Positions 1,432-57,140 of a stretch of 64,000 nucleotides of DNA are shown here, piece by piece. Under the pieces are notes generated by a model. That model was not told the origin of the DNA and did not search any database. It saw nothing but the letters and a program-made list of their open reading frames with translations. The stretch comes from Sipunculus nudus (lineage: Eukaryota > Annelida > Sipuncula > Golfingiida > Sipunculidae), in contig CM049310.1 of assembly GCA_026874595.1 (NCBI GenBank), positions 31,685,558 to 31,749,557 of the forward strand, in the 5' to 3' direction. A program made the position numbers and the translations under genes. Numbering within the stretch: the first letter of the stretch is position 1; the number at the start of each line of letters is the position of its first letter.

Positions 1432-4281
1432 TCTGCAAATCGAACAACTTTACCATTCATGTCACTAACCCCACCCGCATCACTGAGAACAGTGCTACCA
1501 TTTTAGATCAAATTTTAACAACTGACCCAGGACTTTATCAACTGTATCCAGGTCCTTCCACCCTTAGGTAATAATGATCATTGCACCGTGTCTGCAGAAA
1601 TACATATAAATATACCTAAGATTACTGTGTATAAAAGACACATATGGTTATACTCACAGGCCGACTTTGATAAATACCGCCAAATGTTATCTCAAGCTGA
1701 CTGGAATAGCTGTTATGAAACAGACGGGGTCGATCAGACGTGCCTCCGATTTACCCATATGATACTCAATATAGCCAGACAGTGCATGCCAAATAAGGTA
1801 GTCACCGTGAGACCAAAAGATAAACCATGGTACAATAATAATCTCAGAGCTTTAAAACGTCGCAAAGACAGGTTCCATAATATCGCAAAGAAACGCAATC
1901 GCCCACAAGATTGGGCAAAATTTCGAGCAGCTCGGGACTTGTATATTCATAGCTGTAGCAAAGCTAAACTAGATTTTTCAACAGAATTAATGTCAACTAT
2001 AGACCACACTCGTGTTCAGCATCCTAACCACTTTTGGAAGACTATAAAACATATATTGAAAATGGACATGGGTGAATCCATTCCATCAATTGTAATAGAT
2101 GATGATATCATTTCCTCAAACACTGATAAAACCGAAGCTTTTAACAATTTCTTTCTCTCCCAGTCATTTGTAGATGATACCAACGCATCTCTCCCCTTTA
2201 TTCACCAACAATCATCGTCTTTGTCATTAGATAACCTTCAGGCCAGTGAAAAAGATGTTCTCGATGCTCTTTCTAAAATTAATATCACAAAGTCCAATGG
2301 ACCTGACGGTGTGAGTCCACGTCTCCTAAAAGAAGGAGCAACTGAGTTGACAAAACCCTTGTGTCACCTATTGAACACCTCTTTGAACGAAGGTTATGTC
2401 CAATTTTTGTGGAAACAAGCCCATGTTATCCCTATACATAAAAAGGGAGACAAACAGTTATTAAATAATTACAGACCAATTTCCTTTCTTAGTTGCATAG
2501 CTGAAGTTATTGAAAAGTCGTGTTTAAACATCTTTACAATTATCTCACTACATCAAAATTGTTTAGTAAATTTCAATCCGGGTTCCTTCCAGGTGACTCT
2601 ACAGTCAACCAGCTTCTTAATATGTATCACATATTCTCCGAAGCCTTAGACAGAAAGAAGTCGGTCAAAATAGTATTTTTGGACATAAGCAAAGCTTTTG
2701 ACAAGGTCTGGCATAGAGGTATTTTATATAAATTACAAAATACATGAATCCAAGGATCATTGCTCCAATGGTTCAGGTCCTATTTAACTAACAGAATGCA
2801 GAAAGTTTTGATACAAGGGGAATCATCATCTTGGGGTGTACTTAGAGCTGGGGTGCCGCAAGGGACCGTTCTTGGGCCCCTACTATTCCTTATTTTTATC
2901 AACGACATTACAACTAGAATAAACACAAATATCAGGCTTTTTGCCGATGACACAACCCTCTTTTGATAGCTGACACTCCAGAAGAAGCTACATATTTACT
3001 TAATAAAGATCTTGAGGTTCTCATGGAATGGGCTAACACTTGGCTGGTAAAATTCAACGTACAAAAAACTCTAGCTATGTCTTTGTCGCGTTCATATTGC
3101 CCCAGCATGTTATCTCCCAACATTGTTATGTCTGACAGAGTCATCCAGATTTCACCGCAACACAAACATTTGGGGGTTTCAATTTCTTGTGACCTTAATT
3201 GGTCTAATCATGTTGACGATGTTTGTAAAAAGGCTCTTGTCAAAATAAATTTGATGAAAGCTGTTAAGTACAGACTAAATCGTAAATCCTTGGAGATCAT
3301 GTATTTCACCTTTGTTCGTCCAGTTTTAGAATACGGCGACATAATTTGGGATAATTGTAATTCTGCTGATTCCAGTAAGATAGAGTCTGTCCAAGCAGAA
3401 GCAGCCCGGATCGTAACTGGAGCTATCAAGACATGCTCATATGAAGCACTTCTTTCAGAATTGAATTGGGAAAGGTTGTCCTCACGCCGCAAACGCCGTA
3501 AACTAGAAACGTTTTATAAAATAGTAAATGGTATAGCCCCGCAACATTTGTTAAGTTTACTACCGACTACCGTTCGTGAACGATCTGGAAGATATCCACT
3601 ACGGAATCAAGCTGATATTGATTTATTTCGTTGTCGAACTGAACTGTTTTATAACTCATTCTTCCCCTCTACAGTACGTCTATGGAATGAATTAGATGAT
3701 GACGTGAAACAAGTGTCATCATTTGATGAATTCAGAAACAAATTAACTACCCGGACCATTAGTGGTAAAACTTGCAATCCGTTGTTTTATTTAGGCGATC
3801 GTACAAGTAATATAGTGCATGCCAGGTTGCGTTTGGGCTGCAGTTGTTTGAAGTATGACTTATTTAAAATTGGTTTGGTCACAGATGCCAAATGTTCGTA
3901 TGGCCACTCATGCGAGGACCTTAATCATAATTTTTTGGCATGTCCGTTGTATACTTTACAAAGACATATTCTCTTCTTTTCACTTCAGCCAATTCTTCAA
4001 CCAAGTGATATCAATGTTCATATCTTGTTATATGGATCAGACAAGTCTTCTCATGCTGACAATGTTTACCTTTATACTTGTGTTCAGAGATATATAAATG
4101 ACACCTCACGATTTCCGCAATATTCATATAGACTGAATGCAGTATGAGCTATGTATTAGTTATTGAGTTCGTATTGTATCATGGCTGTTTTGTCTTGCAT
4201 ATATAATCGCACATGTTGTAAGATCTAGCGAGAGGCATTGATATAGCACTTTTGCTGTTTGCCAAAAAATATTAAACGATT
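1432..4281 (+). mobile_element. CR1/Jockey-like LINE: endonuclease end, reverse transcriptase, C-terminal Cys/His region
   Basis: This is a non-LTR retrotransposon with recent-looking but broken coding capacity. The C-terminal end of the endonuclease domain is readable at about 1432-1600, ending in the GNNDHCTV motif that matches the family's SDH motif. It is crossed by a one-base frameshift near 1565. The reverse transcriptase follows: NGPDGVSP (about 2300), VIPIHKKGD and NNYRPIS (about 2425-2485), FLDISKAFDKVWH (about 2676), GVPQGTVLGPLLF (about 2850), and the catalytic FADD at 2940-2951. Frameshifts near 2520-2650 and after FADD, plus a stop between the fingers and palm segments, break the frame into four pieces. 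The last piece (2963-4147) carries the thumb region and ends with a CSYGHSCEDLNHNFLAC Cys/His pattern typical of the C-terminus of such elements. The 3' UTR runs to about 4281 and ends in an AT-rich tail. The 5' end is truncated. Clade assignment is by motif memory only. Confidence 0.9.
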
Positions 4282-21134: not shown

Positions 21135-21560
21135 TTTTCATTTCTTGTATTCTCTTCCTCCATGCGTGTCAGGTACACGTCTTTTCTTGTATTCTCTTCC
21201 TCCATGCGTGTCAGGTACACGTCTTTTCTTGTATTCTCTTCCTCCATGCGTGTCAGGTACACGTCTTTTCTTGTATTCTCTTCCTCCATGCGTGTCAGGT
21301 ACACGTCTTTTCTTGTATTCTCTTCCTCCATGCGTGTCCGGTACACGTCTTTTCTTGTATTCTCTTCCTCCATGCGTGTCAGGTACACGTCTTTTCTTGT
21401 ATTCTCTTCCTCCATGCGTGTCAGGTACACGTCTTTCCTTGTATTCTCTTCCTCCATGCGTGTCAGGTACACGTCTTTTCTTGTATTCTCTTCCTCCATG
21501 CGTGTCAGGTACACGTCTTTTCTTGTATTATCTTCCTCCATGCGTGTCATGTACACGTCT
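21135..21560. repeat. 42-bp minisatellite (second family), near-identical units
   Basis: Ten units of 42 bp are recognised by CTTTTCTTGTATTCTCTTCC followed by TCCATGCGTGTCAGGTACAC. They are almost identical, with only isolated changes (for example a C for T at 21436 and an A for C at 21529). This implies very recent expansion or strong homogenisation. Because the period is a multiple of three and has few stops, several frames on both strands are open across the array. The minus-strand frame (21556-21029) reads 14-residue charged repeats (MEEENTRKDVYLTR) and continues about 35 residues beyond the array. I regard coding as unproven. Confidence 0.95.
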
Positions 21561-21869
21561 TGCCTGCATCAAGGCGGGCGTGATTGGCATCTAGTCTGTC
21601 CTGATCCGGTCACTTGATGGCATAGTTTGTTTATCTGAATACATTGATGTCATCATCAGACGGTAGGCTTCGCTCACTTGTGTTCTTAGTAAGACTGCTC
21701 TCAGCTTCAGCGTTTCCGCGGACCAGACCAGGCAAGGTTTGCCAGGATATTATAGCGCCAGGATTCCTTTTATACAAAAGAAATGATTGACATTATGGGT
21801 CAACTCATTTTTAGACTGTGGATATACCCTTCTTGTTCCTTGATGTACCAATCATTGGCTGATCATACA

Positions 21870-24800
21870 TTCATCACTCTGCCCACATCGCACTCTCTGA
21901 TGATGATATGTGGTATTTAAATCTGCCAATGTTGTCCTGTCTGATGATGATCTATGGTAGATCAATCTGCCCACATCGCACTGTCTGATGATGATATGTG
22001 ATATTTAAATCTGCCCACATCGCACTGTCTGATGATGATATGTGGTATTTAAATCTGCCCACATCGCACTGTCTGATGATGATATGTGATATTTAAATCT
22101 GCCCACATCGCACTGTCTGATGATGATATGTGGTATTTAAATCTGCACACATCGCACTGTCTGATGATGATATGTGGTATTTAAATCTGCCCACATCGCA
22201 CTGTCTGATGATGATATGTGGTATTTAAATCTGCCCACATCGCACTGTCTGATGATGATATGTGATATTTAAATCTGCCCACATCGCACTGTCTGATGAT
22301 GATATGTGGTATTTAAATCTGCCCACATCGCACTGTCTGATGATGATATGTGGTATTTAAATCTGCCCACATCGCACTGTCTGATGATGATATGTGGTAT
22401 TTAAATCTGCCCACAATGCACTATCTGATGATGATATGTGGTATTTAAATCTGCCCACATCGCACTGTCTGATGATGATATGTGGTATTTAAATCTGCCC
22501 ACAATGCACTATCTGATGATGATATGTGGTATTTAAATCTGCCCACATCGCACTGTCTGATGATGATATGTGGTATTTAAATCTGACTACATCGCACTGT
22601 CTGATGATGATATGTGATATTTTAATCTCCCCACATCGCACTGTCTGATGATGATATGTGGTATTTAAGTCTGCCCACATCGCACTGTCTGATGATGATA
22701 TGTGATATTTAAATCTGCCCACATCGCACTGTCTGATGATGATATGTGGTATTTAAATCTGCCCACATCGCACTGTCTGATGATGATATGTGATATTTAA
22801 ATCTGCCCACATCGCACTGTCTGATGATGATATGTGGTATTTAAATCTGCCCATGTCGCACTGTCTGATGATGATATGTGGTATTTAAATCTGCCCACAT
22901 CGCACTGTCTGATGATGATATGTGATGTTTAAATCTGCCCACATCGCACTGTCTGATGATGATATGTGGTATTTAAATCTGCCCACAATGCACTATCTGA
23001 TGATGATATGTGATATTTAAATCTGCCCACATCGCACTGCCTGATGATGATATGTGGTATTTAAATCTGCCTATGTCGTCCTGTCTGATGATGATATGTG
23101 GTATTTAAATCTGCCCACATCGCACTGTCTGATGATGATATGTGGTATTTAAATCTGCCCATGTCGTCCTGTCTGATGATGATCTATGGTAGTTCAATCT
23201 GCCCACATCGCACTTTCTGATGATGATATGTGGTATTTAAATCTGCCCACATCGCACTGTCTGATGATGATATGTGGTATTTAAATCTGCCCACATCGCA
23301 CTGTCTGATGATGATATGTGGTATTTAAATCTGCCTACATCGCACTGTCTGATGATGATATGTGGTATTTAAATCTGCCCGCATCGCACTGTCTGATGAT
23401 GATATGTGGTATTTAAATCTGCCAATGTCGTCCTGTCTGATGATGATCTATGGTAGTTCAATCTGCCCACATCGCACTGTCTGATGATGATATGTTGTAT
23501 TTAAATCTGCCCACATCGCACTGTCTGATGATGATATGTGATATTTAAATCTGCCCACATCGCACTGTCTGATGATGATATGTGGTATTTAAATCTGCCA
23601 ATGTCGTCCTGTCTGATGATGATCTATGGTAGTTCAATCTGCCCACATCGCACTGTCTGATGATGATATGTGGTATTTAAATCTGCCCACATCGCACTGT
23701 CTGATGATGATATGTGATATTTAAATCTGACCACATCGCACTTTCTGATGATGATATGTGGTATTTAAATCTGCCCACATCGCGCTGTCTGATGATGATA
23801 TGTGATATTTAAATCTGCCCACATCGCACTGTCCGATGATGATATGTGGTATTTAAATCTGCCCACATCGCACTGTCTGATGATGATATGTGATATTTAA
23901 ATCTGCCAACATCGCACTGTCTGATGATGATATGTGGTATTTAAATCTGCCCACATCGCACTGTCTGATGATGATATGTGGTATTTAAATCTGCCTACAT
24001 CGCACTGTCTGATGATGATATGTGGTATTTAAATCTGCCCACATCGCACTGTCTGATGATGATATGTGATATTTAAATCTGCCCACATCGCACTGTCTGA
24101 TGATGATATGTGGTATTTAAATCTGCCCATGTCGCACTGTCTGATGATGATATGTGGTATTTAATCTGCCCACATCGCACTGTCTGATGATGATATGTGG
24201 TATTTAAATCTGCCCATGTCGTCCGGTCTGATGATGATATGTGGTATTTAAATCTGCCCACATCGCACTGTCTGATGATGATATGTGGTATTTAAATCTG
24301 CCTATGTCGTCCTGTCTGATGATGATATGTGGTATTTAAATCTGCCAACATCGCACTGTCTGATGATGATATGTGGTATTTAAATCTGCCCACATCGCAC
24401 TGTCTGATGATGATATGTGGTATTTAAATCTGCCTACATCGCACTTTCTGATGATGATATGTGGTATTTAAATCTGCCCACATCGCACTGTCTGATGATG
24501 ATATGTGATATTTAAATCTGCCCACATCGCACTGTCTGATGATGATATGTGGTGTTTAAATCTGCCCACATCGCACTGTCTGATGATGATATGTGATGTT
24601 TAAATCTGCCCACATCGCACTATCTGATGATGATATGTGGTATTTAAATCTGCCCACATCGCACTGTCTGATGATGATATGTGATATTTAAATCTGCCCA
24701 CATCGCACTGTCTGATGATGATATGTGGTATTTAAATCTGCCCACATCGCACTGTCTGATGATGATATGTGGTATTTAAATCTGCCCACAATGCACTATC

Positions 24801-26715
24801 TGATGATGATATGTGATATTTAAATCTGCCCACATCGCACTGTCTGATGATGATATGTGGTATTTAAATCTGCCCATGTCGTCCTGTCTGATGATGATAT
24901 GTGGTATTTAAATCTGCCCACATCGCACTGTCTGATGATGATATGTGGTATTTAAATCTGCCTATGTCGTCCTGTCTGATGATGATATGTGGTATTTAAA
25001 TCTCCCCATGTCGCACTGTCTGATGATGATATGTGGTATTCAAATCTGCCCACATCGCACTGTCTGATGATGATATGTGGTATTTAAATCTGCCCACATC
25101 GCACTGTCTGATGATGATATGTGGTATTTAAATCTGCCCATGTCGTCCTGTCTGATGATGATCTATGGTAGTTCAATCTGCCCACATCGCACTTTCTGAT
25201 GATGATATGTGGTATTTAAATCTGCCCACATCGCACTGTCTGATGATGATATGTGGTATTTAAATCTGCCCACATCGCACTGTCTGATGATGATATGTGG
25301 TATTTAAATCTGCCTACATCGCACTGTCTGATGATGATATGTGGTATTTAAATCTGCCCGCATCGCACTGTCTGATGATGATATGTGGTATTTAAATCTG
25401 CCAATGTCGTCCTGTCTGATGATGATCTATGGTAGTTCAATCTGCCCACATCGCACTGTCTGATGATGATATGTTGTATTTAAATCTGCCCACATCGCAC
25501 TGTCTGATGATGATATGTGATATTTAAATCTGCCCACATCGCACTGTCTGATGATGATATGTGGTATTTAAATCTGCCAATGTCGTCCTGTCTGATGATG
25601 ATCTATGGTAGTTCAATCTGCCCACATCGCACTGTCTGATGATGATATGTGGTATTTAAATCTGCCCACATCGCACTGTCTGATGATGATATGTGATATT
25701 TAAATCTGACCACATCGCACTTTCTGATGATGATATGTGGTATTTAAATCTGCCCACATCGCACTGTCTGATGATGATATGTGATATTTAAATCTGCCCA
25801 CATCGCACTGTCTGATGATGATATGTGGTATTTAAATCTGCCCACATCGCACTGTCTGATGATGATATGTGATATTTAAATCTGCCAACATCGCACTGTC
25901 TGATGATGATATGGGGTATTTAAATCTGCCCACATCGCACTGTCTGATGATGATATGTGGTATTTAAATCTGCCTACATCGCACTGTCTGATGATGATAT
26001 GTGGTATTTAAATCTGCCCACATCGCACTGTCTGATGATGATATGTGGTATTTAAATCTGCCCACATCGCACTTTCTGATGATGATATGTGGTATTTAAA
26101 TCTGCCCACATCACACTGTCTGATGATGATATGTGGTATTTAAATCTGCCCACATCGCACTGTCTGATGATGATATGTGGTATTTAAATCTGCCCACATC
26201 GCACTGTCTGATGATGATATGTGATATTTAAATCTGCCCACATCGCACTTTCTGATGATGATATGTGGTATTTAAATCTGCCCACATCGCACTGTCTGAT
26301 GATGATATGTGGTATTTAAATCTGCCCACATCGCACTGTCTGATGATGATATGTGGTATTTAAATCTGCCCACATCGCACTTTCTGATGATGATATGTGG
26401 TATTAAAATCTGCCTACATCGCCCTGTCTGATGATGATATGTGGTATTTAAATCTGCCCACATCGCACTGTCTGATGATGATATGTGGTATTTAAATCTG
26501 CCCACATCGCACTTTCTGATGATGATATGTGGTATTTAAATCTGCCCACATCGCACTGTCTGATGATGATATGTGGTATTTAAATCTGCCCATGTCGTCC
26601 TGTCTGATGATGATATGTGGTATTTAAATCTGCCCACATCGCACTGTCTGATGATGATATGTGGAATTTAAATCTGCCCACATCGCACTGTCTGATGATG
26701 ATCTATGGTAGTTCA
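21870..26715. repeat. Large 44-bp satellite-like array with higher-order structure
   Basis: About 110 units of 44 bp fill 4.8 kb of intron 2. Landmarks are CTGATGATGATATGTGGTAT, TTAAATCTGCCCACATCGCA and CTGT. Recurrent variants (TGATATT for GGTATT, CCATGTCGTCC for CCACATCGCA, ATCTATGGTAGTTCAA for ATATGTGGTATTTAAA, ACAATGCACTAT) mark higher-order blocks. One block of about 1 kb (about 23040-24050) recurs at an offset of 1979 bp (about 25020-26030). That offset equals 45 units minus one base, and a one-base deletion at about 24163 explains the missing base. Short open frames on the minus strand are by-products. Confidence 0.97.
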
Positions 26716-28120
26716 ATTATGTGTTTTCCTCTTTTTCATGTTTGGATAACATGGTGTTCCAATTTGTCCATAAAAAGTACTTAAAATAACATAAATACAT
26801 TGTCAGTGTAATTCGCGACATTTTGAAAAGACAAAGTAGAACAAGAAAGTGGACGTTTGCAGAAATAAAAGAATTTAGGGTTCTGGTATTGAAATTATGT
26901 AAACAGCGTCCCTCACATTAAATAAAAATGAATCATCATAAGATAAACATCATAAGAAAGCTGAATATTTCATACATGCGGAGTTGTTTTGATAAATAAG
27001 TCAGTGTTTGTCTCAGCAGTTCATCTTACTCAACTTGGTAAATACGAGTGCTGTCTAGACAGGAGTACCTGTTTTGAATGAAGTAAGATTATAGACCATT
27101 GTTCTCTGTAGCTCTACTCTTCTACAACACATTGGCGGCTTTTATTTCAGGACGTGAAACAACACAAACTCTTCTGAATTGACAGTAATTATACAGTCAA
27201 ATGTAAATGCATTTACATACTGTATGCTAGTGCAACCTTAGTGAAGAGCGCAGCTAATATCACAGAATAATAATTATTTGGTGCATTGTGATAACACCCC
27301 CGTTAATGGGGTTGAGATTTACAGATTGCTTGTCATCTTAATTTGCCACATGGCGGTTGACGTGATAATTACCAGGCTAGATGTAAAAGCTTTTTATGTG
27401 GCAATTAGGAGAAATGCTTGTTTAAACTTTATTTGAAATTAATTAAACATCAATAGGCTCTCTCTCTGAATGTAATTTGATTTTGGCGAGATAACCAATA
27501 GGATATCAAACTTGGATAGATATTAATTTTTGCCAGCTAATTAAATGGCAGCTGAAATACAGCGGTTGAGTGTTTGTCGTTCATCCTTTCGTCAGTTCGG
27601 CTCCTCCCTCAAAAGGACACTTTTTCCTTCAGTAGGAGGAAGGAACGAGCGCTGCAGGCATCTTGTAGTAAACTACTAGATCTAAAAAATGCGATCGATT
27701 CAGCAGAAGTTCATGTCACACTGGTTAATTGATGGTTATAACAAGTTATAAAGCAGTTACAAAGCCCAATGGAAACGTACCCACATGACATAACGAATTC
27801 AGTATCAAAGTCGGATTGTCACGATTTGTTGATTAATTTCCCGAACACGATGATGACGTGCGTAAATTGCATTTGGATCCCTATTTTCGCGATTATTCTT
27901 TCATATGGTCACTTGAACTTAAGAAAATTATGATTTTCCATAAAGTGTTCCTTCGTAAACAATGGATTATATACTATATTTAATGGGAAAATTTTATTTA
28001 TTTTATTTATTTTGCATTTTTACAGCGCCACATTCAACATCCTGATATTGGTCTTAAAATTATAAATTATTAGTAAAAGCATACATATTAAATTCAATTA
28101 CCTGGCAACAAATAAAACAA
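26716..28120. other. Intron 2 spacer; possible conserved non-coding block
   Basis: No exon is visible. The stretch at about 27250-27560 contains many homeodomain-type cores (TAATTA, ATTAATT, GCTAATTAAATGG) and a CACATGG/CAGCTG E-box-like pair. This composition is often seen in developmental enhancers, but it is suggestive only. The rest is AT-rich. Confidence 0.3.
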
Positions 28121-35521: not shown

Positions 35522-35724
35522 GGCGGAAGTAGATCCAGAGGAACGGAAGGTTAACGCGGTAATACAGCCCAACGGGATGGTCTCCTGGTACCCACATCGA
35601 GTGTATTCAAGTTCCTGCGCAGTCGATGTGCGCAACTTCCCTTTTGACAACCAGACGTGCCATCTTTGGTTCGGTTCATGGACGCACTCACTTATGGAAA
35701 TGGAAGTTAAACTGGCTTTTAAAG
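35522..35724 (+). CDS. nAChR-like subunit, exon 3 (Cys-loop exon)
   Basis: The borders are CTTTCTTTCAG|GGCGGA and AAAG|GTAGGT. The first base completes the Thr codon of exon 2 and the last base starts the next codon. It encodes visible residues 100-166. AEVDPEERKVNAVIQPNGMV is the loop E region, followed by SWYPHRVYSS. The Cys-loop runs from Cys130 to Cys144 with exactly 13 residues between, including the signature FPFDNQT. Then come LWFGSWTHS with the loop B Trp and MEMEVKLAFK. NQT inside the Cys-loop is a possible N-glycosylation site. The disulfide couples ligand binding to gating in this family. The exon is larger than the matching separate exons in vertebrate nicotinic genes, so it appears to be a fusion of two of them. 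Confidence 0.95.
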
Positions 35725-39967: not shown

Positions 39968-42900
39968 ACACTGTATAATGTATGTATACTTGACAGGGTT
40001 TACCTGTATGATGTATGTATACTTGACAGCCGGGATTGACCAGAATAATGTATGTATATTTGACAGCGGTGATTGATTTGAATAATATATGTATACTAGA
40101 CAGCCGGGTTGACTTGAATGGTGAATGTATACCTGACAGCCTGGATTGACCTAAAGGATGTATGTATACCCGACATCCGGGATTTGCCTGAGTATGTATG
40201 TATACTTGACTGCCGGGATTGACCTGAATCATGTATGCATACTTGACAGGATTTACCTGTATGATGTTTGTATACTTGACAGCCGGGATTGACCTGAATA
40301 AGGTATGTATACTTGACAGCGGTGATTGATTTGAATAATGTATGTATACTAGACAGCCGGGATTGACTTGAATGATGTATGTATACTTGACAACCGGGAT
40401 TGACCTGAATAATGAATGTTTACTTGCTATCCAGGATTGACCTGATTTATGTATGTATACTTGACAGCCGGGATTGACCTGAATGATGTATGTATACTTG
40501 ACAACCGGGATTGACCTGAATAATGAATGTTTACTTGCTATCCAGGATTGACCTGATTTATGTATGTATACTTGACAGCCGGGATTGACCTGAATGATGT
40601 ATGTATACCTGACAGCCGAGATTAACCTGAATGATGTATGTATACTTGACAGCCGGGATTGATCTGAATGATGTATGTATACTTTCTAGCCAGGATTGAC
40701 CTGATTTATGTATGTATACTTGACAGCCGGGATTGACCTGAATGATGTATGTATACTTGCTAGCCAGGATTGACCTGATTTATGTATGTATACTTGACAG
40801 CCGTGATTGACCTGAATAATGTATGTATACTTGACAACCGGGATTGACTTGAATAATGAATGTATACTTGACAGCCGGGATTGACCTGAATGATGTATGT
40901 ATACCCGACAGCCTGGATTTGCCTGAATATGTATGTATACTTGACAGCCAGGATTGACCTGAATAAAGTATATATACTTGACAGCCGGGACTGACCTGAA
41001 TGATGTATGTATACTTGCTAGCCAGGATTGACCTGATTTATGTATGTATACTTGACAGCCGGGATTGACCTGAATGATGTATGTATACTTGACAACCGGG
41101 ATTGACCTGAATAATGAATGTTTACTTGCTATCCAGGATTGACCTGATTTATGTATGTATACTTGACAGCCGGGATTGACCTGAATGATGTATGTATACC
41201 TGACAGCCGAGATTAACCTGAATGATGTATGTATACTTGACAGCCGGGATTGATCTGAATGATGTATGTATACTTTCTAGCCAGGATTGACCTGATTTAT
41301 GTATGTATACTTGACAGCCGGGATTGACCTGAATGATGTATGTATACTTGCTAGCCAGGATTGACCTGATTTATGTATGTATACTTGACAGCCGTGATTG
41401 ACCTGAATAATGTATGTATACTTGACAACCGGGATTGACTTGAATAATGAATGTATACTTGACAGTCGGGATTGACCTGAATGATGTATGTTTACTTGAC
41501 AGCCAGGATTGACCTGAATAATGTATGTATACTTGACAGCCGGGATTTGCCTGAATATGTATGTATTCTTGCTAACAAGGATTGACCTGATTTATGTATG
41601 TATACTTGACAGCCGGGATTGACCTGAATGATGTATGTATACTTGCTAGCCGGGATTGACCTGAATGAGGTATGTATACTTGCTAGCCAGGATTGACCTG
41701 AATACTGTATGTATACTTGACAGCCAGGATTGACCTGAATAATGAATGTATACCTGACAGCCGGGATTGACTTGAATAATATATGTATACTCGACAGCCG
41801 GGATTGACCTGAATGATGTATGTATACTTGACAGCCGGGATTTGCCTGAATATGTATGTATACTTGACAGCCGTGATTGACCTGAATAATGTATGTATAC
41901 TTGACAACCGGGATTGACTTGAATAATGAATGTATACTTGACAGTCGGGATTGACCTGAATGATGTATGTTTACTTGACAGCCAGGATTGACCTGAATAA
42001 TGTATGTATACTTGACAGCCGGGATTTGCCTGAATATGTATGTATTCTTGCTAACAAGGATTGACCTGATTTATGTATGTATACTTGACAGCCGGGATTG
42101 ACCTGAATGATGTATGTATACTTGCTAGCCGGGATTGACCTGAATGAGGTATGTATACTTGCTAGCCAGGATTGACCTGAATACTGTATGTATACTTGAC
42201 AGCCAGGATTGACCTGAATAATGAATGTATACCTGACAGCCGGGATTGACTTGAATAATATATGTATACTCGACAGCCGGGATTGACCTGAATGATGTAT
42301 GTATACTTGACAGCCGGGATTTGCCTGAATATGTATGTATACTTGACAGCCAGGATTGACCTGAATAATGTATGTATACTTGACAGTCGGGATTTATGTA
42401 TGTATAGTTGCTAGCCAGAATTGACCTAATTTATGTATGTATACTTGAAAGCCGGGATTGACCTGATTGATGTATGTATACTTGACAGCCGGGATTGACC
42501 TGAATGATGTATGTATACTTGCTAGCCAGGAATGACCTGATTAATGTATGTATACTTGACAGCCGGGATTGACCTGAATAATGAATGTATACCTGACACC
42601 CGGGATTGACTTGAATAATGTATGTATACTCGACAGCCGGGATTGACCTGAATAATGTATGTATACTTGACAGCCGGGATTGACCTGAATGATGTATGTA
42701 TACTTGCTAGCCAGGATTGACCTGATTTATGTCTGTATACTTGCTAGCCAGTATTGACCTGATTTATGTATGTATACTTGACAGCCGGGATTGACCTGAA
42801 TGATGTATGTATACTTGCTAGCCGGGATTGACCTGATTTATGTATGTTTACTTGACAGCCGGGATCGACCTGATTTATGTATGTATACTTGACAGCCGGG

Positions 42901-45009
42901 ATTGACCTGAATAATGAATGTATACCTGACAGCCGGGATTGACCTGAATAATGAATGTATACCTGACAGCCGGGATTGACCTGAATAATGTATGTATACT
43001 TGACAGCCGGGATTGACTTGAATAGTGTATGTATACTTGCTAGCCAGGATTGACCTGAATAATGTTTGTAAACTTGACAGCCGGGATTGACCTGAATGAT
43101 GTATGTTTACTTGACAGCCAGGATTGACCTGAATAATGTATGTATACTTGACAGCCGGGATTTGCCTGAATATGTATGTATTCTTGCTAACAAGGATTGA
43201 CCTGATTTATGTATGTATACTTGACAGCCGGGATTGACCTGAATGATGTATGTATACTTGCTAGCCGGGATTGACCTGAATGAGGTATGTATACTTGCTA
43301 GCCAGGATTGACCTGAATACTGTATGTATACTTGACAGCCAGGATTGACCTGAATAATGAATGTATACCTGACAGCCGGGATTGACTTGAATAATATATG
43401 TATACTCGACAGCCGGGATTGACCTGAATGATGTATGTATACTTGACAGCCGGGATTTGCCTGAATATGTATGTATACTTGACAGCCAGGATTGACCTGA
43501 ATAATGTATGTATACTTGACAGTCGGGATTTATGTATGTATAGTTGCTAGCCAGAATTGACCTAATTTATGTATGTATACTTGAAAGCCGGGATTGACCT
43601 GATTGATGTATGTATACTTGACAGGCGGGATTGACCTGAATGATGTATGTATACTTGCTAGCCAGGATTGACCTGATTTATGTATGTATACTTGCTAGCC
43701 AGGATTGACCTGAATAATGAATGTATACTTGACAGCCGGGATTGACCTGAATGATGTATGTATACTTGACAGCCAGGATTGACCTGAATTATGTATGTAT
43801 ACTTGACAGCCGGGATTGACCTGAATGATGTATGTATACTTGACAGCCGGGATTGACCTGAATGATGTATGTATACTTGACAGCCGGGATTGACCTGAAT
43901 AATGAATGTATACCTGACAGCCGGGATTGACCTGAATAATGTATGTATACTTGACAGCCGGGATTGACTTGAATAGTGTATGTATACTTGCTAGCCAGGA
44001 TTGACCTGAATAATGTTTGTAAACTTGACAGCCGGGATTGACCTGAATGATGTATATATACTTTACAGCCAGGATTGACCTGAATGATGTATGTATACTT
44101 GACAGCCGGGATCGACCTGAATAATGTATGTTTACTTGACAGCCGGGATTGACCTGAATGATGTATGTATACTTGCTAGCCAGGAATGACCTGATTAATG
44201 TATGTATACTTGACAGCCGGGATTGACCTGAATAATGAATGTATACCTGACACCCGGGATTGACTTGAATAATGTATGTATACTCGACAGCCGGGATTGA
44301 CCTGAATAATGTATGTATACTTGACAGCCGGGATTGACCTGAATGATGTATGTATACTTGCTAGCCAGGATTGACCTGATTTATGTCTGTATACTTGCTA
44401 GCCAGTATTGACCTGATTTATGTATGTATACTTGACAGCCGGGATTGACCTGAATGATGTATGTATACTTGCTAGCCGGGATTGACCTGATTTATGTATG
44501 TTTACTTGACAGCCGGGATCGACCTGATTTATGTATGTATACTTGACAGCCGGGATTGACCTGAATAATGAATGTATACCTGACAGCCGGGATTGACCTG
44601 AATAATGAATGTATACCTGACAGCCGGGATTGACCTGAATAATGTATGTATACTTGACAGCCGGGATTGACTTGAATAGTGTATGTATACTTGCTAGCCA
44701 GGATTGACCTGAATAATGTTTGTAAACTTGACAGCCGGGATTGACCTGAATGATGTATGTATACTTTACAGCCAGGATTGACCTGAATGATGTGTGTATA
44801 CTTGACAGCCGGGGTCGACCTGAATAATGTTTGTATACTTGACAGCCGGGATTGACCTGAATGATGTTTGTATACTTGACAGCCGGGATTGTCCTGAATA
44901 ATGTATGTATACTTAACAGCGGGGATTGACCTGAATGATGTATGTATACTTGACAGCCGGGATTGACCTGAATGATGTATGTATACTTCGCAGCCGGGAT
45001 TGACCTGAG
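39968..45009. repeat. 37-bp minisatellite built on the exon 4 splice acceptor
   Basis: About 135 units of 37 bp fill the 3' half of intron 3. The unit landmarks are GATGTATGTATACTTGACAG and CCGGGATTGACCTGAAT. The last unit is the real intron-exon border: GATGTATGTATACTTCGCAG followed by CCGGGATTGACCTGAGC, where exon 4 starts at 44994. Each unit therefore carries an AG acceptor-like site and the first 15 or so exon bases. Subtypes include TTGCTAGCCAGG, TTGACAACCGGG and CGGGATTTGCC. Higher-order blocks recur at offsets of about 591, 479, 1137 and 1656 bp, pointing to repeated unequal exchange. Confidence 0.97.
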
Positions 45010-45245
45010 CACCTTTCAGCAGGTGTACAAGGACGCCAGCGAGTGGGAGATAGAGAACGTGTCTGCTGTACGGGAGCTGGTGCCCCCGGACGACCCGTCA
45101 TACGCCATACTGAGCTTCACGCTCTATCTGAAGAGGAAGCTCATGTTCTCTACATACATACTGACCATGCCGGCTGTCTTCCTCTCATTTCTTACCCTTC
45201 TGGTTTTCTGGCTGCCCCCGGAACACGCAGATAAAAGTGCACTGG
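44994..45245 (+). CDS. nAChR-like subunit, exon 4 (loop C side, pre-M1, TM1)
   Basis: The acceptor is CTTCGCAG|CCGGGATTGACC and the donor is CTGG|GTCAGT. Two bases complete an Ala codon begun in exon 3, and one base begins the next Gly codon. Residues GIDLSTFQQVYKDASEWEIE match the family's 'DLS.Y...GEWE' segment. Next is the loop C region VRELVPPDDPSYAILSFTLY, which lacks the vicinal Cys pair of alpha subunits. The pre-M1 motif LKRK is followed by TM1, FSTYILTMPAVFLSFLTLLV, with the conserved Pro, and then FWLPPEHADK leading into TM2. It covers residues 168-250. The first 16 bases of this exon are shared with the 37-bp array upstream. Using the nearest upstream repeat acceptor would shift the frame and meet a stop within about 16 codons, so this border is the only productive one in that neighbourhood. 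Confidence 0.94.
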
Positions 45246-45699: not shown

Positions 45700-45786
45700 G
45701 TTTAACCATATTTGGTAGTCTGCTACTTTTGCTTCTGATTTTGGTGGAGGCAGCGCCCCCTACCGCCTCTGCTGTTCCTTTGCTTG
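45700..45786 (+). CDS. nAChR-like subunit, exon 5 (TM2, pore-lining helix)
   Basis: The borders are CTACCACAG|GTTTAACC and CTTG|GTGAGT. It enters and leaves in phase 1. It encodes LTIFGSLLLLLLILVEAAPP and then TASAVPLL, the pore-lining helix and the TM2-TM3 linker ('E..P.TS.AVPLLG'). Counting from the Lys of HADK as 0', the 9' gate position is Gly instead of the nearly invariant Leu, 2' is Ala, and 20' is the usual Glu. The -1' position is Asp rather than Glu. The helix is unusually Leu-rich (11'-16'). These are direct readings of the exons; their effect on gating is inference. Confidence 0.93.
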
Positions 45787-46800: not shown

Positions 46801-47649
46801 GTGATCCTCCCTATTTGTTTCAGGTGTGTATAACTGTTTCACAAGTGCCAACGTGATCCTCCCTATTTGTTACAGAGGTGTATAACAGTTTCACCAGTGT
46901 CAACGTGATCCTCTCTATTTGTTACATGTGTGTATTACTGTTTCACCAGTGTCAACGTGATCCTCTTTATTTGATACAGGTTAGATATTGCTTCATCAGT
47001 GTCAACGTGATCCTCTCTGTTTGTTACAGGTGTGTATTACTGTTTCCCCAGCGTCATCGTCATCCCCTCTATTTGTTACAGATGTGAATTAATGTTTCAC
47101 CAGTGTCAACGTGTCCCTTCATTTGTTACAGGTGTGTATTACTGCGTCATCAATGTCATCGTCATCTTCTCTGTTTGTTACAGGTGTGTTTTACTGCTTC
47201 ACCAGTGTCATCGTCATCCTCTTTATTCGTAACAGATGTTCATAACTGTTTCACCAGTGTCAACGTAATCCTCTTCATTTGTTACAGGTGTGTATTACTG
47301 TTTCCCCAGCGTCATCGTCATCCCCTCTATTTGTTACAGATGTGAATTAATGTTTCACCAGTGTCAACGTGTCCCTTCATTTGTTACAGGTGTGTATTAC
47401 TGCGTCATCAATGTCATCGTCATCTTCTCTGTTTGTTACAGGTGTGTTTTACTGCTTCACCAGTGTCATCGTCATCCTCTTTATTCGTAACAGATGTTCA
47501 TAACTGTTTCACCAGTGTCAACGTAATCCTCTTCATTTGTTACAGGTGTGTATTACTGTTTCACCAGTGTCAACGTGATCCTCTCTTTTTGTTACATGTG
47601 TGTATTACTGTTTCATTAATGTCAATGTTATCCTAATTTTTTGTTACAG
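46801..47649. repeat. 52-bp minisatellite built on the exon 6 splice acceptor
   Basis: Sixteen units of about 52 bp precede exon 6, and the exon's own edge is the seventeenth. Each unit has a T-rich tract, TTGTTACAG, and the first 45 or so exon bases (GTGTGTATTACTGTTTCACC, AGTGTCAACGTGATCCTCTC). AG-bearing acceptor positions end at 46823, 46875, 46979, 47029, 47081, 47131, 47183, 47235, 47287, 47339, 47389, 47441, 47493 and 47545. Two units (46927, 47597) have CAT instead of CAG. A five-unit block is duplicated at an offset of 258 bp (47032-47232 equals 47290-47490). The repeats therefore contain partial copies of the TM3 coding sequence. Confidence 0.96.
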
Positions 47650-47768
47650 GTGTGTATTACTGCTTCACCAGTGTCATCGTTATCCTCTCTATTTTCCTCT
47701 CCTCCCTGGTCGTCAAGGTCGGGAGACGCGGAGAACGGAGGAAACGGATGCCAACCTTGCTAAGAAGG
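47650..47768 (+). CDS. nAChR-like subunit, exon 6 (TM3 and start of cytoplasmic loop)
   Basis: The acceptor is TTTTTTGTTACAG|GTGTG and the donor is AGAAGG|GTAAGA. The first two bases complete the Gly codon of exon 5, and it leaves in phase 0. It encodes VYYCFTSVIVILSIFLSSLV, which is TM3, then the basic start of the cytoplasmic loop, VKVGRRGERRKRMPTLLRR. The 'VYYC' opening and the 'RRGERR..MP' block match invertebrate nicotinic subunits. It covers residues 281-319. Its 5' edge is the terminal unit of the 52-bp array. Splicing to the intact decoy at 47545 would reach a stop codon at about 47617-47619, before the true exon. Confidence 0.94.
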
Positions 47769-48807: not shown

Positions 48808-49215
48808 ATTTTCATAAATGGCGTGGGAAGGATAGTATGTTTAAAAGAACTTCTGAAGTGCCGACGGAAAACCCCTCAAATACTGGGCATGCGCAGGACT
48901 GAGTGTCCGGAAAAACACCTACTGCCATCTGTAGGACCACGGTTGAACTGCCCAGAGGACGGTTCGACCGAGGGTATGTCACACGATAACTCATCAAATG
49001 GTGTGCTAGACCGGCGACTGAAAGCTATACAAGAAATGATGGAACGAACAGCCGCGGAAAAAATGGAGCGACGTGCAAAAGAAAATGCTGTAAGAGAGAT
49101 TGAAGCGGAATGGCGCACTCTGGCGCTCGTTCTAGACCGTATTTTCTTTCTTGTGTACTTAGTGGTCACGTGCAGCTCGCTGTTAGCCTTGTTCCCAAGA
49201 TTCAGTAGGATGTAA
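48808..49215 (+). CDS. nAChR-like subunit, exon 7 (cytoplasmic loop, MA helix, TM4, stop)
   Basis: The acceptor is TTATATTTGCAG|ATTTTC and entry is in phase 0. The TAA stop is at 49213-49215. It starts IFINGVGRIVCLKELLKCRR, the region after TM3. A variable Pro/Ser/Cys-rich cytoplasmic stretch follows, then the amphipathic MA helix (LDRRLKAIQEMMERTAAEKM and ENAVREIEAEWRTLALVLDR). TM4 is IFFLVYLVVTCSSLLALFPR. The 'EW..LA.VLDR.FF' junction of MA helix and TM4 is diagnostic for nicotinic subunits. It covers residues 320-454. The cytoplasmic loop is of ordinary length, so the C-terminus is complete. A polyadenylation hexamer lies about 210 bp downstream. Confidence 0.95.
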   Translation: MFINGVGRIVCLKELLKCRRKTPQILGMRRTECPEKHLLPSVGPRLNCPEDGSTEGMSHDNSSNGVLDRRLKAIQEMMERTAAEKMERRAKENAVREIEAEWRTLALVLDRIFFLVYLVVTCSSLLALFPRFSRM

Positions 49216-51511: not shown

Positions 51512-51919
51512 GGACGGAAAAAAGAATACAAACACGCGTTGGGAACATCCCACAACCCGAACCCCCATAGCCCCTTTAAATATTAACTATAGGTGTCCGA
51601 ATGTGGAAACTGTGTTTTATTGATATCAACAGACAAAACTGTACGTAAAAAGTAGACAGTGTCTTAAAAACATAAAGCTATGAATATGTAGGATTCGAAA
51701 TATATTACATATAGTCGGCTCCTCTCGAAATCGACCTTTTACACCATTACACATGGTTTTAAAGGTTACTCTTATTATTCCTATGCCAGGTGGCCATGTA
51801 TTATGTTTTGGATGGTTTCTTGGTAGGTTTATCTGTTACCAAATTTATCAAACAATTTAAAAATGGCTTTTGATGAAACTGTGCCGAACGTTAGGGAGAC
51901 TCACAGGGGATAAAGTACA

Positions 51920-53255
51920 CTCGGACCGACCCATCAAGAGAGCTCAGCCAACCTTTTTCAGCCCGGCACACTCTGACTGGCACAACAATAAGGAGAGCAC
52001 AGCCATCCGTCTCCAGCCCGACGCACTCCGACCGACACACCAAGAGAGCACAGGCATTCGTCTCCAGCCCGACACACTCCGACCGACACACCAAGAGAGC
52101 ACAGCCATCCGACACCAGCCCGCCACACTCCGACCGACACACCATGAGAGCACAGCCATCCGTCTCCAGCCGGGCACACTCTGAACGACACACCATGAGA
52201 GCACAGCTATCCGACTCCAGCCCGCCACACTCCGACCGACCCACCATGAGAGCAAAGCCATCCGTCCCTAGCCTAGTACACTCTGAACGATACACCAAGA
52301 CAGCACAGCCGCCCGTCTCCAGCCCGGCACACTCCGACCGACACACCATGAGAGCACAGCCATCCGTCTCAAGCCTAGTACACTCTGAACGGTACACCAA
52401 GACAGCACAGCCGCCCATCTCCAGCCCGACACACTCCGACCGACACACCAAGAGAGCACAGGCATTCGTCTCCAGCACGACACACTCCGACCGACACACC
52501 AAGAGAGCACAGCCATCCGACACCAGCCCGCCACACTCCGACTGACACACCATGAGAGCACAGCCATCCGTCTCCAGCCGGGCACACTCTGAACGACACA
52601 CCATGAGAGCACAGCTATCCGACTCCAGCCCGCCACACTCCGACCGACCCACCATGAGAGCAAAGCCATCCGTCCCTAGCCTAGTACACTCTGAACGATA
52701 CACCAAGACAGCACAGCCGCCCGTCTCCAGCCCGGCACACTCCGACTGACACACCATGAGAGCACAGCCATCCGTCTCAAGCCTAGTACACTCTGAACGG
52801 TACACCAAGACAGCACAGCCGCTCATCTCCAGCCCGACACACTCCGACCGACACACCAAGAGAGCACAGGCATTCGTCTCCAGCACGACACACTCCGACC
52901 GACACACCAAGAGAGCACAGCCATCCGACTCCAGCCCACCACACTCCGACCGACACACCATAAGAGCACAGCCATCCGTCTCCAGCCCGGCACACTCTGA
53001 ACGACATACTATGAGAGCACAGCCATCCGACTCCAGCCCGCCACACTCCGACCGACACACCATGAGATCACAGCCATCCGTCTCCAGCCCGGCACACTTT
53101 GAACGACACACCAAGAGAGCACAGCCATCCGACTCCAGCCCGCCACACTCCGACCGACACACCATGAAAGCACAGCCATCCGTCCCTAGCCTAGTACACT
53201 CTGAACGATACACCAAGACAGCACAGCCGCCCGTCTCCAGCCCGGCACACTAAGC
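51920..53255. repeat. 51-bp GC-rich minisatellite with 408-bp higher-order repeat
   Basis: About 26 units of 51 bp have the landmarks AGAGCACAGCCATCCGTCTC, CAGCCCGGCACACTCCGACC and GACACACCATG. An eight-unit block recurs at exactly 408 bp (the same variants at 52201 and 52609). It is much more GC-rich than its surroundings. Since 51 is a multiple of 3, several frames stay open. The minus-strand frame is open over the entire array (about 53250 to 51891) and reads 17-residue units such as CALLVCRSECVGLETDG, with three Cys each. It lacks a convincing start, splice site or domain. I annotate it as repeat, not as a gene. Confidence 0.95.
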
Positions 53256-55423: not shown

Positions 55424-55535
55424 CGTATACGTACGACATATTATCTCGTACGTACGACATATTATCTCGTGCGTACGACATACTACCTCGTACGTACGAC
55501 ATATTATCTCTTACGTACGACATACTATCTCGCTT
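55424..55535 (+). repeat. TACGTACG-type ~20-bp tandem repeat, forward copy
   Basis: Five to six units of about 20 bp are built on CGTACGACATATTATCTCGT. The CGTACG core is self-complementary. An inverted copy of the same array lies at 57081-57140. Confidence 0.92.
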
Positions 55536-57080: not shown

Positions 57081-57140
57081 TATGTCGTACGTACGAGATA
57101 ATATGTCGTAAGTACGAGATAGAATGTCGTACGTACGAGT
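57081..57140 (-). repeat. TACGTACG-type tandem repeat, inverted copy
   Basis: Three units of ACGAGATAATATGTCGTACG type, the reverse complement of the array at 55424-55535, lie about 1.5 kb away in opposite orientation. Confidence 0.9.

Follow-up and report, generated by a model that had tools for sequence, protein, structure and literature searches.

Minisatellites built from splice junctions in a nicotinic-type receptor gene of Sipunculus nudus and at other exon edges of its genome

The stretch of the Sipunculus nudus genome analyzed here (64,000 nucleotides, C5:31685558-31749557 of the 1.43-Gb assembly, referred to as the window) contains the gene of a nicotinic-type Cys-loop receptor subunit. 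Two introns of this gene end in minisatellites whose units combine the splice acceptor with the first codons of the following exon. These minisatellites, array 1 before exon 4 and array 2 before exon 6, are very probably mirages: both would be derived from a splice junction, with the copy adjoining the exon kept as the working acceptor. The direction from exon to array is well supported, because conserved coding sequence makes up 45 nt of each unit in array 2 and about 72 nt of each unit in an array found elsewhere in the genome (L072, see below).

The arrays and their host gene

Five exons of the gene (exons 3–7) together give 355 codons of uninterrupted reading frame, and all of their borders follow the GT-AG rule. 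The frame matches the Pfam families Neur_chan_memb (3.6e-26) and Neur_chan_LBD (6.8e-21). The best solved relative is a nicotinic alpha-6 subunit (1.4e-44). The alignment to nicotinic subunits continues across the exon 3–exon 4 junction. Thus, the start of exon 4 at 44994 is supported by the open frame, the Pfam matches and the junction-spanning alignment. A motif search upstream of exon 3 for exons 1 and 2 found neither of them.

A 37-bp minisatellite of about 5 kb had been described at this junction in an initial annotation. Tandem Repeats Finder (TRF) confirms it (39971-45008, reaching into exon 4; period 37, 137.1 copies, 86% matches), as does a cyclic alignment, which places 137 units (64 distinct, the first one partial) upstream of 44994. 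The array accounts for 54% of intron 3 (9,269 nt) and leaves a non-array part of about 4.2 kb. A unit consists of 22 nt of intron and 15 nt of exon 4 and spans the intron-exon boundary in the manner of a mirage. The annotation had stated that every unit contains both an intronic and an exonic motif. This does not hold for the exact sequences: TATACTTGACAG is present in 58 of the 137 units, the 15-nt exon part CCGGGATTGACCTGA in 51 and both together in 15. The AG is kept at the end of 119 units. One of these is the true site and the remaining 118 are decoys, in line with the dozens of decoy acceptors that had been noted.

The terminal unit was said to differ from the others at two bases. It does so (TTCGCAG followed by CCGGG, compared to TTGACAG followed by CCGGG in the consensus), but the differences are at positions -5 and -4, before the CAG, and not directly before the AG as described. 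The string TTCGCAG occurs only once in array 1, in this unit. Furthermore, the terminal unit contains a branch-point-like TTGAC, the A of which is located at 44966, 27 nt from the intron end.

Array 2 is absent from the initial annotation. In its consensus unit, the final 7 nt of intron 5 are combined with the initial 45 nt of exon 6, and the unit likewise spans the boundary. The exonic part encodes the segment GVYYCFTSVIVILSI of the third transmembrane helix (TM3), and the final copy is the true start of exon 6 at 47650. Since 45 of the 52 bases in the unit are conserved coding sequence, exon 6 is by far the likelier source of array 2 than the reverse. In its units CAG is directly followed by GTGTGT, i.e. 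an acceptor is fused to a donor.

For array 1, a derivation from the acceptor and exon start of the gene that contains it had already been proposed. This derivation is supported, and its direction is much clearer in array 2 and L072. As an alternative, the minisatellite may have come first, and the start of the exon may have been captured from it. The short exonic part of array 1 would be in line with this, as would the abundance of tandem repeats in the genome (13.24% by TRF, according to the available part of PMC10212961). However, an unrelated repeat would not supply the conserved coding sequence present in array 2 and L072. The exon part of array 1 encodes GIDLS, and in the alignment that crosses the junction, IDLS is paired with VDMN of a nicotinic subunit. 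Capture of an exon start from a pre-existing minisatellite is extremely improbable.

Blocks of 16, 14, 13 and 12 consecutive units recur in array 1 with zero differences. Because whole blocks recur unchanged, they point to growth of the array by recent block duplication. Units that occur only once are found at both ends (units 0–11 and 130–136), with another 12 inside the array. The exclusion of edge units from homogenization, which is a property of mirages, is thus seen in array 1, the array covered by this analysis. The once-only units at both ends suggest that the coding copy escapes homogenization with the rest of the array.

Most likely, a small tandem duplication across the splice acceptor and the first exon codons was the starting point. 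Expansion into the intron would have followed through unequal exchange or slippage. Selection would maintain the copy joined to the remainder of the exon as working acceptor, and the upstream copies would become decoys. Later growth of array 1 by duplication of blocks of 12–16 units would have left the unique units at the edges. The features of the window and of the arrays found elsewhere are listed in Table 1.

Table 1. Exons and arrays of the receptor gene (window positions) and exon-edge arrays elsewhere in the genome.
Feature	Position	Strand	Description
Array 1	39971..44993	+	137 tandem 37-bp copies of the intron 3 acceptor with the 15 nt that open exon 4
Terminal unit of array 1	44957..44993	+	Last decoy exon start and true acceptor (ATACTTCGCAG)
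Array 2	46801..47694	+	52-bp unit, 17.3 copies, in intron 5
Exon 3	35522..35724	+	Cys-loop, AEVDPEERK...KLAFK; donor gtaggt; phase 1
Exon 4	44994..45245	+	Starts with codons for (A)GIDLS; next intron begins gtcagt
Exon 5	45700..45786	+	TM2 to TM3 linker
Exon 6	47650..47768	+	TM3, GVYYCFTSVIVILSIFLSS...; acceptor TTTGTTACAG then GTGTGT
Exon 7	48808..49215	+	Intracellular loop, MA helix, TM4, stop
L037	G000:C4:93861013-93862646		Donor-side, kinase exon end ...SEPYSTK then gtagat; 65-bp unit, 11 copies into next intron
L066	1325-1444 of stretch L066		Donor-side, kinase exon end YLAPE then gtaagg; 49-bp unit, 2.4 copies
L072	G000:C10:13300430-13300900		Acceptor-side, Cys-loop receptor exon; at least 3 copies, about 72 nt of exon each, 120-123 bp spacing

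Splice-site scores and reading frames

Splice sites were scored with matrices built from 42 S. nudus exons. The true acceptor of array 1 (4.71) exceeds 112 of the 118 decoys (decoy mean 1.48) and has the top score among the 11 AGs within 44940-45060. The sole other AG with a frame offset of 0 in this range is at 45054 and scores -10.0. An alternative start of exon 4 at 45020 (after TTTCAG) was rejected, as it is out of frame and scores 3.47. The true acceptor of array 2 (12.94) is the best of the 85 AGs in intron 5.

Splicing to the decoy nearest to exon 4 (37 nt upstream of 44994) shifts the frame and leads to a stop after 15 codons, as had been expected in the initial annotation. A premature stop results from the use of any single unit-boundary decoy, in array 1 (118/118) as well as in array 2 (14/14), i.e. 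for all 132. Among the unit-boundary AGs of the two arrays (119 and 15, respectively), only 44994 and 47650 keep the frame open across the exons that follow. In both arrays, the probable authentic boundary is the copy joined to the remaining exon sequence.

The complete set of premature stops may also be read as a splicing rheostat. Decoy use at appreciable rates would then produce out-of-frame transcripts subject to nonsense-mediated decay, and the length of the array would tune receptor expression. The decoys of array 2 are strong acceptors (n = 14, mean 9.0, maximum 12.3; six of them above the sampled median of 10.6), and both the acceptor and the donor of exon 4 are weak, which is compatible with such a role. 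However, frame shifts and a stop-rich unit are sufficient to predict the premature stops, and amphioxus mirages reportedly leave regular splicing undisturbed (available part of PMC3087553). A rheostat is quite unlikely.

Recursive (ratchet) splicing is another possible role of array 2. Splicing to a decoy with the CAG/GTGTGT arrangement would regenerate a donor, and the next splice would erase the mistake. Eleven of the 16 units checked begin with GT, and eight of these reach a donor score of 9.2, compared to a median of 8.3 for 42 real S. nudus donors. The high acceptor scores reached by the decoys of array 2 are consistent with this as well. On the other hand, GTGTGT is also how exon 6 itself begins; the arrangement was therefore inherited from the exon, and selection is not needed. 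Furthermore, the donor score of 9.2 includes the CAG of the intron, whereas TTG, the end of exon 5, would precede the donor after the splice. The ratchet is also inapplicable to array 1, where the decoys start with CCGGG. It is very unlikely that array 2 acts in this way.

Several points weigh against the interpretation of the arrays as mirages with a working acceptor next to the exon. The edges of the 42 exons used for the matrices had been picked with the same score. The true acceptor of array 1 is weak and lies below the minimum of the 42 sampled acceptors (5.8). Six of the 118 decoys and 24 of the 376 AGs in intron 3 score equal to or better than the true acceptor; accordingly, local strength does not account for the choice of 44994. 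The donor of exon 4 is also weak (1.77, sampled minimum 3.5). Because both splice sites score below the minima of the 42 exons, exon 4 may be alternatively included. The exonic part of array 1 comprises just 15 nt, and the direction in this array is deduced from these and from the analogy to array 2. RNA folding at 44800-45100 shows nothing special (z = -1.13), and the idea that RNA structure hides the decoys was rejected for this reason. Finally, the working sites were assigned from sequence and homology only. The Rfam search gave zero matches at gathering thresholds.

The choice of the acceptor may be explained by exon definition. The spliceosome would take the exon-adjacent copy, as it is the only one followed by a long exon with a donor of its own. 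Decoys would be ignored because only about 20 nt of pseudo-exon come after them, compared to 252 nt and a donor, albeit the weak one, at the true site. Array 1 contains 103 donor-like GTATGT motifs, and this sequence is the donor of 5 of the 42 sampled S. nudus exons. A GTATGT is located 11–20 nt downstream of 92 of the 118 decoy AGs. The resulting pseudo-microexons are probably too short to be defined. According to the scanning rule, the first AG past the branch point is used (available part of PMC1431707). Because the next AG upstream of the true site is 37 nt away, the branch point should be located inside the last decoy unit or very close to it, and the TTGAC of the terminal unit is a candidate.

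Exon-edge arrays elsewhere in the genome

Genome-wide exon searches resulted in at least 138 protein kinase matches and at least 151 matches to the Cys-loop membrane region. By eye, 58 of 138 kinase matches were judged eligible (no internal stop, short open frame), and 43 of these, located in 40 stretches, were analyzed. The Cys-loop sample comprises six stretches from among more exons that end at the same family position. The boundaries of the sampled exons were set by the family match together with splice signals. In these 46 stretches with 50 exons, three exon-edge arrays beyond the window are present, two on the donor side (L037 and L066) and one on the acceptor side (L072). The array of L066 belongs to a neighboring exon that was noticed through the array itself; a strict blind count gives two mirages (L037 and L072) in 49 exons.

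In L037, nine donors (AAG followed by GTAGAT) are identical over nine bases, including the true one, which is the first. The array of L072 runs to the end of the stretch analyzed, and an acceptor is visible in two of the three copies in view. The true copy of L072 reads SLRRHMGYFLINVY, and the corresponding sequence in L074 and L076 is LRRHMGYFLINVY. The second arginine is found in the true copy and in all five other paralogues. In the two decoys it is replaced by G (SLRGH) and C (SLRCH). All six Cys-loop stretches belong to an anion-channel-like branch, as judged by eye from the TM2 motif. They were rejected as paralogues of the window receptor itself on account of this different branch.

Two further candidates were rejected. 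The array in L032 begins a few bases past the donor and contains no exon sequence, so it is not a donor mirage. L044 has a two-copy 120-bp repeat without an exon part.

A scan with exon 18-mers (every 6 nt, up to two mismatches) covered the 43 kinase exons and the five window exons. Recurrence within 700 bp was observed only at the edges of three of these 48 exons, namely at the starts of exons 4 and 6 and at the end of the L037 exon. In the genome both types of edges are affected, acceptors in arrays 1 and 2 and L072 and donors in L037 and L066. In all five cases the copy joined to the remainder of the exon (the last one on the acceptor side, the first one on the donor side) continues into conserved protein.

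Splice junctions may be preferred birth sites of minisatellites, for example by a targeted process linked to replication or R-loops. Two minisatellites of the window gene straddle exon edges, as do three of the 13 arrays in the 46 sampled stretches. However, random placement of these 13 arrays yields a mean of 1.83 straddling arrays (P = 0.26). The exon limits in this test are family-match limits, except for the second exon of L066 and the exon of L072, whose limits were set after the arrays had been seen. This bias favors the observed count. Since P is 0.26 in spite of favorable limits, an attraction of minisatellites by splice junctions is not claimed, and targeted birth is unlikely. Minisatellites make up 33% of the window and about 8% of a random 200-kb genome sample. 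A minisatellite-rich genome can yield such edge arrays by itself.

Known systems and other repeats of the window

Mirages are known from amphioxus, where Adh3, the globins BflGb6 and BflGb9, troponin C and PGBD5 are affected, and the authentic copy of the gene contributes to the transcript (available parts of PMC3087553 and PMC3902484). Data on Adh3 and reverse-transcription PCR of the globins are said to show regular splicing (same sources). The S. nudus arrays resemble these mirages in that the repeats span the intron/exon boundary, acceptor and donor types exist and the edges escape homogenization (as far as these sources describe them). The 137 copies of array 1 compare to six and three copies in two haplotypes of amphioxus BflGb6, and the units of amphioxus Adh3 measure 10–72 bp (available part of PMC3087553). 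A further trait of amphioxus-type mirages is unstable length, even somatically. In contrast to amphioxus, the arrays described here occur in Sipuncula, a protostome group; two of them are found in one gene, and their structure is described at the level of DNA.

Minisatellite units that bear a splice site are also found in human IFI6 (6-16/G1P3). In this gene, according to Turri (1995), a minisatellite reportedly supplies multiple splice donors, and two downstream units are said to be used in transcripts. Arrays 1 and 2, in contrast, consist of predicted acceptors. In the Rogers model of intron gain by tandem genomic duplication, the duplicated sequence likewise contains splice signals, but there an intron is gained, whereas the introns described here are enlarged.

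In human, internal tandem repeats located where exons meet introns likewise alter gene structure. Unlike arrays 1 and 2, they are recent variation between duplicated genes, with units of 30 bp and four copies on average (available part of PMC2812944). The minisatellites of earthworm metallothionein are intronic and, in the available part of PMC12783039, are not placed on a splice junction.

The literature searched for mirages and boundary minisatellites, with taxa named in part of the search only, contained reports from amphioxus and human and none from an annelid or a sipunculan. The S. nudus arrays are an extreme case of the known mirage structure, in a phylum that is new for mirages as far as this search shows. 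A wider proposal is possible but rather doubtful: S. nudus would contain exon-edge mirages in very large number, and within the literature searched these would be the first from outside the chordates. These would be competition arrays with 118 near-identical decoys or nine identical donors (L037), in which the site is chosen by its position next to the exon and not by local strength, and some of them (array 2) might be self-erasing ladders of recursive splicing.

The arrays extend a lancelet curiosity to a distant animal lineage. The nine donors of L037 and the decoys of array 1 are a natural test of how the spliceosome chooses among near-identical sites. Many decoys of array 1 are only a few bases off the true site, so that position and exon context become separable from local strength without any design. 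They are also a warning that gene prediction may misplace exon edges in minisatellite-rich genomes.

Other repeats are present in the window. Upstream of the identified exons lies a 4.8-kb array at 21878-26717 (44 bp, 110 copies, 92% matches). It is preceded by a young-looking array at 21141-21561 with a 42-bp unit (10 copies, 98% matches) and open frames on both strands. At 51917-53251, a 51-bp array (17 codons) is open throughout on the minus strand, with a stop-to-stop frame of 452 codons, and over long parts of the plus strand as well. The 21-bp unit TACGTACGACATATTATCTCG is found at 55428-55532 and 57081-57139, in opposite orientations and about 1.5 kb apart. Long open frames at 1519-2646 and 2951-4144 resemble, by eye, pieces of non-LTR (long terminal repeat) retrotransposons.

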